Shown here in pieces: positions 22,399 to 41,250 of a stretch of 56,206 bases of DNA (within the stretch, counting starts at the first letter, position 1; every line of letters starts with the position of its first letter). The notes below the pieces were generated by a model. The model had not been told where the DNA came from and ran no database searches. It saw nothing but the letters and a program-made list of their open reading frames with translations. Origin of the DNA: Longimicrobiales bacterium (GTDB lineage Bacteria > Gemmatimonadota > Gemmatimonadetes > Longimicrobiales > Gaopeijiaceae); assembly GCA_028278645.1 (NCBI GenBank), contig JANQDZ010000059.1, positions 1-56,206 on the forward strand, given 5' to 3'. The translations under genes and the position numbers were made by a program.

Positions 22399-22415
22399 TT
22401 TCGCAACACCCTTCT
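22399..22415 (-). repeat. Half-copy of the GAAGGGTGTTGCGAAA repeat
   Basis: On the minus strand these bases read AGAAGGGTGTTGCGAAA, identical to the outer 17 bases of the palindromic element at 38583-38949. It lies between lepB and the sigma factor gene. No intact inverted partner is nearby, though GTTGCG occurs at 22371-22376. It is likely a decayed or partial copy. Confidence 0.6.
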
Positions 22416-22458
22416 AACTGAGGCTCCACTTGCCCAATCGCCGAAAAGGTTCGAGAGA

Positions 22459-23313
22459 ATGAAATTCCCCTCCAAACGCGGACAATTCCGAGAGGGGTCT
22501 CTGGACCAGTATCTGAAGGAGATCAGCGCCTATCCTCTCATCGATCGCGATGAGGAGGTCAGGCTGGCGAAAGAGATCAGGAAGGGTGAGGAAGCGGCCC
22601 TGAACAAGTTGGTCCGCTCCAACCTCCGATTTGTGGTCTCTGTGGCGAAAAAGTACCAGAACCAAGGGGTCCCCCTTCCTGACCTCATCAACGAAGGGAA
22701 TCTGGGGCTTATCCGGGCCGCCCATAAGTTCGACGAGACGAAGGGAATCAAATTCATCAGCTATGCGGTATGGTGGATCCGCCAGGCGATCCTCCAAGCC
22801 CTTGCTGAACAAAGCCGCATTGTTCGGGTGCCGTTGAACCGTGCCGGAGCCCTCCACAGAATCGGCCGCCGGAGCTCCACTCTGCTTCAGGAGCTGGGTA
22901 GGGAGCCCACGGTGGAGGAGATTGCCGAGGAGCTGGAGATCTCCAGGGAGGAAGTCGAGCGGACGCTGGCAATCTCCCAATCCCACCTTTCCCTGGATGC
23001 CCCCGTCACCCCCGGCGAGGACAACCGGCTCCTGGATTACCTCCCGGACCAATACTCCCCGGGTCCCGAGGACGAAGCCTATCAACACGCTTTGAAGGAG
23101 ACCGTGGAGGACGCTCTCTCCACCCTAAAAGAGAGGGAAGCGAAGATCCTGCGGCTCTACTTCGGGTTGGACGATCAGGAGCCCATGACGCTGGAAGAGA
23201 TCGGCTCACTCCTGGGCATTACCAGGGAGCGGGTTCGCCAGATCAAGGAAAAGGCGCTTCTCCGCTTGCGGCACGCGTCCAGGGCTCGGTTCCTCGAGAC
23301 CTTCATGCAATAA
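22459..23313 (+). CDS. rpoD: Primary-type RNA polymerase sigma factor
   Basis: 284 residues of the sigma-70 family. Region 1.2 opens with SLDQYLKEISAYPLIDRDEE (residues 14-33). Region 2 has NLRFVVSVAKKYQNQG, DLINEGNLGLIRAAHKFD and FISYAVWWIRQAI. Region 3 follows, and region 4 has TLKEREAKILRLYFGLD and ITRERVRQIKEKALLRLR. Region 1.1 and the non-conserved insert are absent, as in the short primary sigma factors of Bacteroidota and relatives. It would direct transcription from the TTGACA/TATAAT-like promoters seen here. Whether it is the housekeeping sigma or a close paralogue cannot be proven; its setting before ribosomal protein genes supports housekeeping. Confidence 0.9.
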   Translation: MKFPSKRGQFREGSLDQYLKEISAYPLIDRDEEVRLAKEIRKGEEAALNKLVRSNLRFVVSVAKKYQNQGVPLPDLINEGNLGLIRAAHKFDETKGIKFISYAVWWIRQAILQALAEQSRIVRVPLNRAGALHRIGRRSSTLLQELGREPTVEEIAEELEISREEVERTLAISQSHLSLDAPVTPGEDNRLLDYLPDQYSPGPEDEAYQHALKETVEDALSTLKEREAKILRLYFGLDDQEPMTLEEIGSLLGITRERVRQIKEKALLRLRHASRARFLETFMQ

Positions 23314-36131: not shown

Positions 36132-37409
36132 ATGCTCGCCCTCCAATCGCTGCGGCATGACCCCGAATCGGCAAAGGCCGCCTTGGCAAAACGGGCCGAT
36201 GAGGGTTATTCGGCTGCAGTGGACGAAGTCCTTTCGGTCGATGAAACCCGTCGCCGAGCCATCGCGGAGGTGGAGGAGCTAAAACGCCGCCGGAACGAAG
36301 TTTCCAAGGAGGTCGGCAGGCTGAAGCGGGAGGGAGAGCCCGCCGAAGAGCTGATCGTCGAGATGAGGTCGGTGGGAGACAAGATCTCCCAGTTGGATGC
36401 CGTCATCTCTTCTTCCGATGAAAAGATCCGCGCGATCCTCCTTGGTCTGCCGAATCTCCCCCTTTCCGAAGTACCACCGGGGGGGGAGGAGGAAAACGTG
36501 CTGGTCAGAGAGTGGGGTGATCCGGTTTCTTTCCCTTTCTCGCCCCGACCCCACTGGGAACTCGGGGAGGGGCTTGGAATCCTCGATCTTCCACGGGGGG
36601 CCAAGGTGTCCGGCTCAGGCTTCCCGTTGTTGCGACGGGAGGGCGCCCGGCTCCAGCGAGGCTTGGTGGATTTCATGATCGATCTCCACACAAAGGAGCA
36701 CGGGTACGAAGAGCTTCGCATACCCTACCTCGTGACTGAAGAGTCCATGGTCGGAACGGGGCAGCTTCCGAAGTTTGCCGAGGAGTCCTACCTGACCCGC
36801 CGGGACGCATTGTGGCTGGTCCCGACGGCGGAAGTGCCGGTCACGAATCTCTACCGGGACGAGCTCCTGGCGGCAGATGATCTTCCCATGCGGTTCACGG
36901 CGTATTCGCCCTGTTTCCGGCGGGAGGCTGGTGCTGCCGGAAAGGACACGAGGGGTCTCCTTCGAGTGCACCAGTTCGACAAGGTCGAGTTGGTACGGTA
37001 CGAGACTCCGGAGCGTAGCCGGGAGGCTCTGGAAGAGCTGACTCGGGAAGCGGAGGTCGTCCTCCAGCGCCTGGGCCTGCACTACCGAGTGGTTATTCTC
37101 GCCGCAGGCGACCTGGGCTTTTCCAGCGCCATGACCTACGACCTCGAAGTCTGGGCACCCGGGGTGGAGAAGTGGCTGGAGGTTTCCAGTTGTTCGGTGT
37201 TCACCGATTATCAGGCCAGGCGGGCGAACCTGAGGTTCCGGCGTGCCCCGGGTAAAAAGCCCGAGTTCCTCCACACATTGAATGGATCGGGGCTAGCTCT
37301 CCCCCGCCTCATGGTGGCCCTCCTCGAAACCTACCAGGATGAGTCTGCGGCCGTGTCTCTCCCCGAGCCGTTGCACGCATATACCGGGTTCTCCCGGCTG
37401 GAACCTTGA
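36132..37409 (+). CDS. serS: Seryl-tRNA synthetase
   Basis: 425 residues, full length. The N-terminal coiled-coil arm (~residues 30-105) reaches the tRNA. The class II catalytic domain has VPTAEVPVTNLYRDE, motif 2 FRREAGAAGKDTRGLLRVHQ and motif 3 TLNGSGLALPRLMVALLETY. It charges tRNA-Ser and tRNA-Sec. Between motifs 2 and 3 is FDKVELVRYETPE, usual for SerRS. The stop overlaps the TTG start of the downstream kinase gene, an uncommon partner. Confidence 0.97.
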   Translation: MLALQSLRHDPESAKAALAKRADEGYSAAVDEVLSVDETRRRAIAEVEELKRRRNEVSKEVGRLKREGEPAEELIVEMRSVGDKISQLDAVISSSDEKIRAILLGLPNLPLSEVPPGGEEENVLVREWGDPVSFPFSPRPHWELGEGLGILDLPRGAKVSGSGFPLLRREGARLQRGLVDFMIDLHTKEHGYEELRIPYLVTEESMVGTGQLPKFAEESYLTRRDALWLVPTAEVPVTNLYRDELLAADDLPMRFTAYSPCFRREAGAAGKDTRGLLRVHQFDKVELVRYETPERSREALEELTREAEVVLQRLGLHYRVVILAAGDLGFSSAMTYDLEVWAPGVEKWLEVSSCSVFTDYQARRANLRFRRAPGKKPEFLHTLNGSGLALPRLMVALLETYQDESAAVSLPEPLHAYTGFSRLEP

Positions 37410-38584
37410 GGCGTCGCAACTGGCCCATCGCTCTGGCGATTCTCTTCGTCGCCCAGCTGGTATGGTATCTCTGGTACACACAGCGGATCGTCGAAGCACT
37501 GGAGGACAACGCCGAGGGGCTCTCCCAGATCTACGCTTATGTCCAGGAAAGCCTCCTCGGTGTGGAGGCTCCCCCGGCCGACGATATCCTCATGAACCTC
37601 CAGACCATCCTCAGGGGGTCCGAGGTTCCGCTGGTTCTTTCCGGTGTCGGCGACACGATCCTGTCGGTGGCCAATCTTCCGTTCGAGGCCGATCTAGCCA
37701 TACCCGAAGGCCAGGCCCGAGTGCGAGATTACGCCCGGGAGTTGGATCTCCGGCGACCGCCCCTCGGGGACCCCGAGGTCCAGCTCGTGCATTTTGGCGA
37801 CCCGCCTGAGGTTCGTTCGCTCCGGTGGATCCCGCTTTTTCAGGTGGTAGGCCTCCTGATCACGGGCTTTCTGGGTATCCTCTCCATTAGGGTCCAACGC
37901 CGGTCGGAAGCCGAAAGAGCCTGGACCTCCATGGCGCGAGAACTGGCCCACCAGCTTGGGACGCCTATCTCCTCCCTCCAGGGGTGGTTGGAGCTGTTGC
38001 GGTTGGAGCCAGGCGAGAGACCCAAAGAGATGGAAGAGGGAGAGATCGCTGGGGAGCTCGCAGCCGATTTGAGCCGGTTGGAGAAGATCAGCCATCGATT
38101 CGAGCTTATCGGGATGGATCCAAAACTGGAGGACGTGAGCCTCCTAGGGATCTTGGAAGGTCTCCAGAGATATCTGAAGGTTCGGATTCCCCGGGGTGTG
38201 AAGCTGGGATTGGACCTCCCCTCCGATCTCCCACCGATTCGGGGTAACGCCACCCTCCTCACTTGGGCCTTCGAGAACGTTCTCAAGAACGCACTGGACG
38301 CTTTGGGAGGCACCGGCGGCGCCATTCAGATCCGGTGCACCCGGGAAACCAGAAAGCAGGTCCTGGTATCCATCAGTGACACCGGGCCGGGGGTGCCTTA
38401 CGAGGTTCGCCGGGGCCTCTTCGAGCCGGGGGTTACTACAAAAGAACGAGGGTGGGGTGTGGGTTTAGCCCTCTCCAGGAGGATCGTGGAGGGAGTGCAC
38501 GGCGGAAGAATCGAGTTGGGAGACGAGGGATCGGGGGGAGCCACCTTCCACATTCGTCTCCCGATTCAGCAGACGAGTGAGTAG
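37406..38584 (+). CDS. Membrane sensor histidine kinase
   Basis: 392 residues starting at TTG inside the serS stop (TTGA). Two helices (about 7-24 and 141-160) enclose a ~115-residue periplasmic sensor domain. The H-box RELAHQLGTPISSLQGW has phospho-acceptor His182. The catalytic domain has WAFENVLKNALDA (N-box), SDTGPGVP (G1) and TKERGWGVGLALSRRIV (G2, where GxGLGL becomes GWGVGLAL). The NtrY/NtrB-like H-box and ATP lid make it a possible partner for the sigma-54 regulator at 19016-20377, but they are 17 kb apart. The stop codon touches the palindromic element. Confidence 0.9.
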   Translation: MRRRNWPIALAILFVAQLVWYLWYTQRIVEALEDNAEGLSQIYAYVQESLLGVEAPPADDILMNLQTILRGSEVPLVLSGVGDTILSVANLPFEADLAIPEGQARVRDYARELDLRRPPLGDPEVQLVHFGDPPEVRSLRWIPLFQVVGLLITGFLGILSIRVQRRSEAERAWTSMARELAHQLGTPISSLQGWLELLRLEPGERPKEMEEGEIAGELAADLSRLEKISHRFELIGMDPKLEDVSLLGILEGLQRYLKVRIPRGVKLGLDLPSDLPPIRGNATLLTWAFENVLKNALDALGGTGGAIQIRCTRETRKQVLVSISDTGPGVPYEVRRGLFEPGVTTKERGWGVGLALSRRIVEGVHGGRIELGDEGSGGATFHIRLPIQQTSE

Positions 38585-38949
38585 AAGGGTGTTGCGAAAA
38601 GGGGGCGAGCCCCGTTACGAACGCCACGGGGCCATATGCGAGACGGGGCTTCGCTGGCATAGCCATGCGCTACGTCGAGAAGGCCCAACGAAGCAGATGG
38701 CCCCGTGCCGTCGAGCCGAGCGGCCTGCCCGCTGGCAGGTTCGCGGGGATCTTCCGCGAGACCGCCAAGCGAAGCGCAGGCGTAACCCGAAGGGCATAGG
38801 GAGGTTGCGGACGGGCACCGCCGCGGTAGCGGTGGTCGCCGCGTCAAAACTCCTCCCCGATGCTTCAGCATCGCATTCGTCGTCCTTCCTTGTCTAGCAA
38901 CCGCAAGCTCCCTATGCGGGACCGCACCCCCTTTTCGCAACACCCTTCT
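38583..38949. repeat. 367-base palindromic element with 23-base terminal inverted repeats
   Basis: The ends 38583-38605 and 38927-38949 are exact reverse complements over 23 bases (outer part AGAAGGGTGTTGCGAAAA, then a run of G). Inside are further inverted pairs: CACGGGGCCAT 38625-38635 with 38697-38707; a 16-base pair 38795-38810 with 38901-38916 (one mismatch); CACCGC/GCGGTG at 38816-38834; and a GATGC-TTCA-GCATC hairpin at 38859-38872. It fills the whole kinase-to-helicase gap, starting on the kinase stop codon. No transposase is encoded. It looks like a non-autonomous, MITE-like element or a compound palindromic repeat. Confidence 0.8.
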
Positions 38950-38952
38950 CGG

Positions 38953-41250
38953 GTGCCCCACGATTCTCACTCACCCCCCCAGGCCCACTCACACCTTCCC
39001 GAACTGAATCCGCAACAGAGGGAAGCAGTGGAGCATTTCCAGGGGCCGCTCCTCGTGTTGGCCGGCGCGGGGTCCGGGAAGACCCGAGTTCTGACAGCCC
39101 GGATTTGCCACCTGATCCGCCACCACGGAGTACCTCCCTATCGCATTCTCTCCGTCACCTTCACCAACAAGGCGGCGGGGGAAATGAAAGAGCGGATCCG
39201 GCAGCAGCTCGGGGAAGAGCCAACCGGACTCTGGGCGGGGACATTCCATTCCACCGGAGCAAGGATCCTTCGCCGTTTTGCGTCGCTACTCGGATGGTCA
39301 CCGACCTTCACTATCTATGACCAGGAACAGACTCTTCGGCAGATCAAACGAGCCCAAGAGGAGGTCGGAATCGATCCCAAACGATGGAGCCCGAAGGTTT
39401 TCCGATCCCATATCAGCGGCGCGAAGAACCAACTGATCTCGCCGCAGGAGTTCGTCGAGGAAAACGGGGACAGCTTTGACATCATCCAGCGGCACGTGGC
39501 TCGGATCTACCCTGTCTTCCAGGAGGCCCTTAAGAACCACGATGCGTTCGACTTCGATGACCTCCTCGTGAAACCGGTGGAGCTCTTTGAAAGTCGACCC
39601 GAGATCCTGGAGGAGTATCGGTCCCGGTTCTCCTTCCTTTTGGTGGACGAGTACCAGGACACAAACCGGGCCCAATTCCGATTCCTCGAGCTCCTTGCCG
39701 GAGAGGCCGCCAATCTCATGGTGGTGGGTGACGACGACCAGAGCATTTATGCGTGGCGGGGAGCGGACATCAGAAACATCCTCGACTTTGAAGCGGCGTT
39801 CCCTCGTGCGGCGGTCGTCCGCTTGGAGGAGAATTACAGGTCCACTGAAAAAATCCTGGACGCTGCCAACCAGGTGATCCGCCACAACGTAGACAGGAAG
39901 GGGAAGGACCTCAGGACCCGGCGGAAGGGCGGGGACACCATCTCGATCACGGAGACCCTGGACGAGACCGATGAGGCACGGTGGATCGCAGGGGAGATCG
40001 AAGCGACAATTGGTCAAGTGCCGGACCGGGATTACCGATCATACTCGGTTTTGTACCGCACCAACACCCAGGCGAGAGCCTTGGAAGACGCGTTCCGGGT
40101 AAAAGGCCTCCCCTACCAGGTCGTGGGCGGAGTCGGCTTCTATGAACGGAGGGAGATTCAGGACGTTCTCGGATATCTACGGTTGATATCGAATCCCAGG
40201 GACGGAGGGGCCTTCGACCGGGTGGTGGGGTATCCCCGCCGGGGAGTCGGATCCACCACCGTGGCGCGCCTGCGAGAATGGTCCCAGGAAACGGGCCTTA
40301 CTCTCCTGGAAGCCGCTTCGAAGGCCGTCGAGATCCCGACCCTCCCCAAAAGCGGCGTAAGGGGGCTGACCGAGTTCGCCGACCTGATCCAGCGGTACTC
40401 CGCGAGAGCTTCCCAGGTGGAGGTTGGCGTAGCCTTAGAAGAGCTGGTTGAAGAGCTGGACCTCCTCAGGCTCCTCAGGGAAGAGGGCCCCGATGGGGAC
40501 GATCGTGCAGAGAACGTAAAGGAGCTCATTGCGGCAGCCATGGACTTCGAGGCCGAGCTCCTGGAGGAAGACGACCTCCCCCGGGATCGATTCACGGACC
40601 TGGACTTCTTCCTCCAACGGGTTTCCCTGGTTGCCGACGTGGACCTCCACGATCCGGATGCCGATAGCGTCACGCTGATGACCCTCCATAACGCCAAGGG
40701 GCTCGAGTTCCCGGTGGTCTTCATCTCGGGATTGGAGGACGGACTCTTCCCGCTGAGCCGGGCCTATGACGACCCGGCCTCCCTCGAGGAGGAGCGGCGG
40801 TTGTTCTATGTGGGTCTCACCAGGGCCGAGGACAAGCTCTACCTGACCCATGCTCGTCAGCGGAGAAGGGCAGGCGAATACATGTACGGCCGACTATCCC
40901 CCTTCGTGGAAGCCATCGACGAGGCCCTGGTGGATGAAAGGACCTCCAGCCGCCTACGACGCAGCTTCGAAACGGGGTTCGGAATCGGGTTCGGTGGCAC
41001 CTCGTCCCGGAGGAGGAGGCAGGAGAGGGTCCAGGAGGAGTGGGAAAACTCGTTCGCCGACGAGGACCTCAACCAGGACCTACCGAGGTTCGTGAAAGGG
41101 GAGAGGGTATCTCACTCCACTTTCGGTTCGGGCACGGTAATGGAGGTCTCTGGCTTCGGCCCGGACTTGAAGGTCACAGTGAAGTTCGATTCGGTGGGAG
41201 TGAAGAAGCTCCTGGCCCGATACGCCGATCTGGAGAAGGACTACTTTTAA
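38953..41250 (+). CDS. pcrA: ATP-dependent DNA helicase PcrA/UvrD
   Basis: About 766 residues of superfamily 1A helicase. Motif I is LAGAGSGKT; Ia is VTFTNKAAGEMKERI; II is LLVDEYQDTN; III is VVGDDDQSIYAWRGADI; IV is VVRLEENYRST; V is TLMTLHNAKGLEFPVVF; VI is RRLFYVGLTRAEDKL. The C-terminus ends in VKKLLARYADLEKDYF, the RNA-polymerase-binding Tudor-like part typical of PcrA. It acts in nucleotide excision and replication repair. The start is uncertain: GTG at 38953 is the only start outside the palindromic element, while ATGs at 38860 and 38914 lie inside it. No good Shine-Dalgarno exists for any. Confidence 0.93.
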   Translation: MPHDSHSPPQAHSHLPELNPQQREAVEHFQGPLLVLAGAGSGKTRVLTARICHLIRHHGVPPYRILSVTFTNKAAGEMKERIRQQLGEEPTGLWAGTFHSTGARILRRFASLLGWSPTFTIYDQEQTLRQIKRAQEEVGIDPKRWSPKVFRSHISGAKNQLISPQEFVEENGDSFDIIQRHVARIYPVFQEALKNHDAFDFDDLLVKPVELFESRPEILEEYRSRFSFLLVDEYQDTNRAQFRFLELLAGEAANLMVVGDDDQSIYAWRGADIRNILDFEAAFPRAAVVRLEENYRSTEKILDAANQVIRHNVDRKGKDLRTRRKGGDTISITETLDETDEARWIAGEIEATIGQVPDRDYRSYSVLYRTNTQARALEDAFRVKGLPYQVVGGVGFYERREIQDVLGYLRLISNPRDGGAFDRVVGYPRRGVGSTTVARLREWSQETGLTLLEAASKAVEIPTLPKSGVRGLTEFADLIQRYSARASQVEVGVALEELVEELDLLRLLREEGPDGDDRAENVKELIAAAMDFEAELLEEDDLPRDRFTDLDFFLQRVSLVADVDLHDPDADSVTLMTLHNAKGLEFPVVFISGLEDGLFPLSRAYDDPASLEEERRLFYVGLTRAEDKLYLTHARQRRRAGEYMYGRLSPFVEAIDEALVDERTSSRLRRSFETGFGIGFGGTSSRRRRQERVQEEWENSFADEDLNQDLPRFVKGERVSHSTFGSGTVMEVSGFGPDLKVTVKFDSVGVKKLLARYADLEKDYF

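Follow-up and report, generated by a model that had tools for sequence, protein, structure and literature searches.

The window, a 56,206-nucleotide stretch of DNA from a Longimicrobiales bacterium, contains on its forward strand a gene for a sensor histidine kinase (37406–38584), recognized by an HATPase_c match over the cut-off and a HisKA match just under it, and a gene for a PcrA/UvrD-type helicase (38953–41250), recognized by Pfam and NCBIfam. Between the two genes lies an element of 367 bp (38583–38949), which contains no transposase ORF and is bounded by exact terminal inverted repeats (TIRs) of 23 nt, at 38583–38605 on the top strand and 38927–38949 on the bottom strand, the two arms being 100% complementary. 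The kinase ORF ends with TAG at 38582–38584, across the left element junction, and its stop codon therefore includes the A and G with which the left repeat begins. The sole in-frame pcrA start outside the element is the GTG at 38953, 3 bases after 38949, and three in-frame start-like codons lie inside the element (ATG 38860, TTG 38890 and ATG 38914). The initial annotation of this DNA had described the 367-base span with its exact 23-base repeats, the lack of a transposase, the overlap of the left end with the kinase stop and the 3-base distance from the right end to the only outside pcrA start, all of which were borne out. It had also placed two pcrA starts inside the element; inner starts are present, and their number is three if TTG 38890 is counted.

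The interior of the element is highly paired. A repeat search yielded two inverted pairs within the TIRs, 38621–38639/38693–38711 at 89% and 38794–38810/38901–38917 at 94%, and one further pair outside the element, within the kinase gene; additional helices appear in the MFE fold, in agreement with the nested inner pairs described initially. The RNA fold of the element was calculated at −209.2 kcal/mol, compared with −154.6 ± 5.3 kcal/mol for shuffled sequences (z −10.3; 0 of 100 shuffles as good), and the DNA fold gave a z of −9.0. An Rfam search of the window returned nothing at the gathering score, and a relaxed search returned only chance-level matches (E 2–5).

Several parts can be distinguished along the element. 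The left TA of the target (38582–38583), placed from the sequence and from the TA/CTAG ends of other copies, forms the kinase stop TAG together with the next G. Inside the left TIR lies D1 (38610–38719), a structured domain of 110 nt folding on the top strand, which was delimited by a match of 101.1 bits to covariance model R1 (locus L001, 1528–1637), by covariation and by an excess of GU over AC. Module B (38714–38780) is an extra hairpin segment of the long copies that is missing from the 275-bp copies, many copies matching query segments 1–131 and 199–367 with a gap between. Domain D2 (38790–38920) is related to D1 and read on the bottom strand, as indicated by its outer helix (38794–38810/38901–38917), by opposite-strand matches to the D1 model in other copies and by the folded bottom strand. 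It contains a small G+C-rich hairpin, CGGGCACCGCCGCGGTAGCGGTGGTCGCCG (38812–38841), which in the comparison of element sequences is missing at this place from most copies. Since a C follows the right TIR, the target copy on that side reads TC instead of TA.

The kinase–pcrA element is an insertion at this site. Measured from the kinase stop to a conserved residue of PcrA, the gap is 413 bp here and 16–163 bp in all 27 scorable relatives (of 30 kinase loci fetched, 28 were scorable, namely our own and the 27, the two others being without a PcrA match or kinase end). The element is thus absent at this site from every relative scored, and removal of its 367 bp from the 413 bp leaves 46 bp, within the range of the relatives. 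A genome-wide search revealed not a unique element but many copies: in the source genome (4.9 Mb, 103 contigs), 58 segments match the element, and at least 16 copies with paired ends were found, of about 275–301 and 343–387 bp (15 by script and L006 by eye), plus fragments and several further copies interrupted by contig ends. Beyond this genome, a DNA search detected the element in 16 of 59 related genomes. The exact D1-hairpin pattern was found in 75 stretches among 84,980 species genomes, 74 of them labelled Gemmatimonadota or its orders and one labelled 'Proteobacteria', and had no match in viral contigs. The D1 covariance model matched 45 of 395 genomes sampled across Gemmatimonadota, in 28 of 138 genera, in a sample that includes members of the training set.

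Copies are bounded by TA, frequently in the form CTAG or CTAA; with a few bases of slack permitted at the boundary, CTAR was found at 120 of 244 ends and at 0 of 244 control windows. Copies such as L005 and L007 have TA/CTAG at either end, whereas the target pair of the kinase–pcrA copy is TA on the left and TC on the right, and the duplication is therefore imperfect there. A target duplication, which the initial annotation had raised as a check, is accordingly seen as a TA/CTAG-type sequence at the ends of other copies and in degraded form at this one. The copies fall into several TIR classes, and counterparts were seen on IS5/IS1182-type insertion sequences, most clearly in the genome of one relative, G031. 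There, a 1400-bp IS ends with CTAGCAGGTCGCTGAAAAAGTCCT on one side, and the element of the same genome starts with CTAGCAGGTCGCTGAAAAAGGGGGG; over its first 20 bases, the TIR of that element is the same as the IS end CTAGCAGGTCGCTGAAAAAG. The protein of this IS has 394 residues with DUF772 and DDE_Tnp_1 domains, and passes the NCBIfam cut-off for IS5_4 and not that for IS1182. The dispersed copies, the insertion at this site, the TA/CTAG-type target and the TIR shared with the G031 IS together indicate that the element is very likely a MITE, mobile through its TIRs and a transposase acting in trans; the initial reading as a non-autonomous mobile element is in line with the same copies, with the empty sites of the relatives and with the target at other copies. 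The mobilizing enzymes are probably of the IS5/IS1182 type. In the 103-contig draft of the source genome, searches with PF13751, PF05598 and the G031 transposase gave no match, and no pair of TIRs 1–2.5 kb apart was found among the end-like sites, so that an autonomous copy in this genome was rejected. From these sequences we infer that the element transposes and that its source-genome subfamily has a partner transposase. Among 24 loci obtained from the transposase searches, several with a whole IS, the D1 domain was found in none, and these transposases therefore seem not to need D1.

How do the ends of the element compare with its core? Comparison of left and right arms within each copy gave 97.8% agreement over 20 nt, with a minimum of 90% (34 aligned elements). 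Between copies, TIR identity has a mean of 0.70 and a minimum of 0.35 where the cores are at least 85% alike, and is about 0.4 otherwise, some of these comparisons being offset by one base. Two copies from the genome of a relative, isolate CSSed162cmB_561 (L100 and L150), differ at 4 of 110 D1 columns and at 10 of 22 TIR columns, and two copies from the source genome (L023 and L028) match at 94 of 111 positions in D1 and at 10 of 22 in the TIR. The interior is thus conserved while the TIRs change fast, always as matched pairs, which is unusual for a MITE. Both arms would change jointly if a whole end were exchanged or if one arm served as the template for the other.

Incomplete forms of the family were also observed. 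The source genome contains TIR-only palindromes of 26–59 bp without the core (L203, L204, L031–L034 and L038) and, elsewhere, about ten single element ends, which suggests that copies often lose their interior or one of their halves. Within the window, a lone TIR-like end of the same family, CGCAACACCCTTCTA, is located at 22400–22416 on the bottom strand, without partner or core and upstream of an ORF starting near 22459; it is probably a deletion remnant. Genome G029 (loci L246, L247 and L255) has numerous lone ends carrying the TIR AGAGGGTGTTTACATACTACG, some of which stop just inside the core.

Covariation was assessed in an alignment (A1) of 34 elements of 264–312 bp with the standard order of parts, 4 of the 38 listed having been dropped as wrong-strand or rearranged. 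Both sides changed in 61 of 85 pairs, and 95.5% of cells are paired, a figure inflated by derivation of the structure from the same alignment. None of 500 shuffles reached any of five measures, and sliding one side reduced the pairing to 39–43%. Many unpaired columns are invariant. In one of the analyses, locus L106 was entered twice, on opposite strands. The initial annotation had suggested a structured RNA, and the covariation supports the structured part of this suggestion; a transcription barrier, which it had also suggested, is a candidate role.

The D1 model was found to match D2 on the opposite strand, with up to 69.6 bits (L049), 63.4 bits (L238) and 61.8 bits (L127). Since D1 read backwards scores at most about 44 bits, D2 matches of 45–70 bits exceed the background, and many D2 matches do not. 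Local alignment of left against right halves gave a weak likeness (z −0.7 to 5.4 in 17 elements). On the basis of these model matches, the interior of the element is best described as two related domains on opposite strands, D1 on the top and D2 on the bottom. The bottom strand of D2 has covarying pairs separated by G·A and A·G oppositions; among 84 non-redundant sequences, 46 have every one of the six positions of these tandem oppositions filled, and 62 have Watson–Crick pairs at all three intervening places. These oppositions would be C·T on the other strand, indicating that the bottom strand is the folding strand of D2. On the top strand of D1, the ratio of GU to AC is 49:25 in the basal and 52:13 in the apical part, as counted in 97 distinct sequences from an alignment fitted to the model and with relatedness ignored. 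The TIR stem has a GU:AC ratio of 14:15, likewise ignoring relatedness, and this lack of a wobble preference makes at least the TIR stem look DNA-level. A wobble test on a smaller set, 40 distinct stem pairs of D1 of which 39 could be scored by length, fell short of significance, with p values of 0.07 against the TIR stem and 0.09 against the TIR plus basal stem; the excess in the 97 sequences is stronger. A single conserved non-coding RNA, to which the covariation had pointed, was rejected as a description of the element, given the opposite-strand match of D2 to the D1 model and the dispersal of the whole unit.

The position of the elements relative to genes was examined in 102 elements; 164 model hits were reduced by 20 without a TIR pair by script and by 22 duplicates to 122, and then by 10 with short flanks and 10 without a gene call. 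With genes called by an ORF and codon-position heuristic rather than from annotation, 98 genes were seen to run into an element; 66 of these terminate at the junction, and this junction stop is TAG in 48 of the 66, as against 7 of the 32 other incoming genes. In the same 102 elements, 49 lie between genes both running against the D1 strand and 13 between genes both running with it (p = 5e-6). The kinase–pcrA copy is one of the 13 and thus has the rarer orientation. The bias kept its direction in five settings of the heuristic, with ratios of 42:14 to 33:7 and 42:9 and p values of 3e-6 to 2e-4. Relative to GC skew, no clear bias was seen where the flanking genes converge or diverge (30 contexts, of which 14 were negative; p = 0.30), and none relative to net coding direction was detected in such contexts. 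As GC skew is only a proxy, this result argues against replication direction as the cause of the orientation bias, short of excluding it. Gene strand bias is reportedly the subject of one published study (PMC11237797).

The explanation towards which we lean, by a modest degree of confidence, is a MITE whose folded RNA tails make insertion at a stop codon tolerable. The TIRs would presumably be cut and joined in trans by a DDE transposase of the IS5/IS1182 type at CTAG/TA sites. The two related folded domains stand head to head, and with D1 on the top and D2 on the bottom strand, transcription from either side first meets a domain in its folding sense, just behind the incoming stop. The folded RNA tail may then shield the upstream message, so that insertion at the stop codon can be tolerated; tolerated insertion would in turn keep the folds under selection, with the TIRs following whichever transposase is at hand. 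Elements lying D1-first between co-directional genes seem to be at a disadvantage, and harm to the downstream gene is a plausible reason. A role in transcripts is favoured on two grounds, namely that the bias goes with the flanking genes and that the folding domain of each strand is nearest to the incoming gene, although both this RNA role and the reason for the bias are put forward here as presumptions. In most cases the strand on which D1 is preserved is not that of the mRNA, a poor fit to a plain mRNA-tail role for D1, and this in particular gives a DNA-level reading some plausibility. The preferred explanation is also weakened by the TIR stem without a wobble preference, by the source draft genome having yielded no match to a partner transposase, and by the imperfect TA/TC target and rarer orientation of the kinase–pcrA copy.

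At the DNA level, the folds may act as single-stranded hairpins or cruciforms in transposition or replication, each end being recognized by a transposase or host factor and RNA being irrelevant. The mirror symmetry of the two inward-facing domains, which resembles transposase-binding ends, and the TIR stem without an RNA-like wobble preference (14:15) are consistent with this, as is the fact that tandem G·A pairs and G·T wobbles are found in DNA too. However, the orientation bias tracks the directly flanking genes (49:13) with no bias detected relative to GC skew or net coding direction where those genes converge or diverge, and D1 is present in 0 of the 24 transposase-search loci; we regard such a DNA role as a genuine but rather unlikely prospect. 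Alternatively, pairing might be kept without selection in a decaying MITE, through hairpin-templated repair that copies one palindrome arm onto the other. The near-identity of the arms within a copy (97.8% over 20 nt) together with the wide differences of TIRs between copies would follow from such repair, as would the mostly two-sided changes of the TIR stem and its equal GU and AC mismatches. Repair of this kind would erase G·A mismatches, yet the tandem G·A positions of D2 are conserved; moreover, GU exceeds AC in D1 (basal 49:25, apical 52:13) and many unpaired columns are invariant, and the possibility is accordingly judged quite improbable. An ordinary, non-mobile regulatory RNA or terminator of a kinase–pcrA operon might have been suspected from the very stable fold that begins at a stop codon between co-directional genes. 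It is refuted by the dispersed copies in the same genome and by the gap comparison with the 27 of 27 scorable relatives, the sequence also having no Rfam match, and retains next to no probability.

A bolder reading is that the folded core is a persistent unit that has switched among the TIRs of several IS5/IS1182-type transposons within the Gemmatimonadota, like a bacterial SINE that changes its mobilizing partner, with one folded RNA domain per strand acting on transcripts from either side and recognized by a specific host or element factor. This is offered tentatively and is on balance doubtful. If the core truly outlives its transposases, MITEs would not necessarily be deletion derivatives of one IS, and a folded sequence could be a parasite in its own right, swapping its ends. 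The family provides many natural replicates for distinguishing RNA folding, DNA folding and palindrome repair as the maintainer of pairing, and the stop-codon overlap and orientation bias lead to specific, testable predictions on operon polarity.

MITE-like repeats with folded transcripts, stop-codon overlap and orientation effects are already known, as judged from the parts of the published accounts drawn on here for BOX, RUP, ERIC, Correia and bcr. BOX and RUP of Streptococcus pneumoniae are described as short, gene-less, intergenic and highly paired repeats, which the likeness of their TIRs connects with IS transposases (PMC3049150, PMC2229807); RUP inserts at TA, and in 36 cases a BOX copy provides an annotated gene with its stop codon (BOX count: PMC3049150). 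The present element is likewise short, gene-less, intergenic and highly paired, and shares TA insertion with RUP and stop-codon supply with BOX. In contrast to these repeats, as far as they are described there, it belongs to another phylum, has no sequence relation that was seen (the window having no Rfam match), swaps its TIR while keeping its core, and has related domains on opposite strands. The repeats bcr1–bcr18 of the Bacillus cereus group are MITE-like and intergenic, in UTRs and operon gaps, with conserved secondary structure in bcr10 and bcr18 (PMC3446304); they are reported there for one species group, whereas the Gemmatimonadota core spans several families of one phylum and has TA/CTAG ends. 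ERIC and Correia/NEMIS are palindromic MITE-like repeats that affect transcripts (PMC3049150, PMC2229807), in an orientation-dependent manner for ERIC (PMC3049150). They differ in phylum and sequence, and an opposite-strand domain pair and TIR turnover are not among the features given for them in those accounts. IS5/IS1182-type insertion sequences resemble the element in TIRs that begin with CTAG, with the first 20 bases matching in G031, but encode a transposase and are without the folded core. A search of a single literature library returned no paper on such elements in Gemmatimonadota and no report of this family. The new features are a core found across the phylum whose matched TIRs change fast, a pair of domains on opposite strands with tandem G·A pairs, and the orientation bias.

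Two variants of the element were also observed. Eight elements (L002, L006, L024, L064, L087, L112, L115 and L136) have a further small hairpin (GGGCACC...GGTGCCC/GGTGGTC type) inserted at varying places within them, resulting in hairpins nested in hairpins; this hairpin may be a separate repeat family. Finally, elements of 164–169 bp with a single hairpin domain and unrelated TIRs were found at L081, L101 and L122, of which L101 is labelled Proteobacteria.
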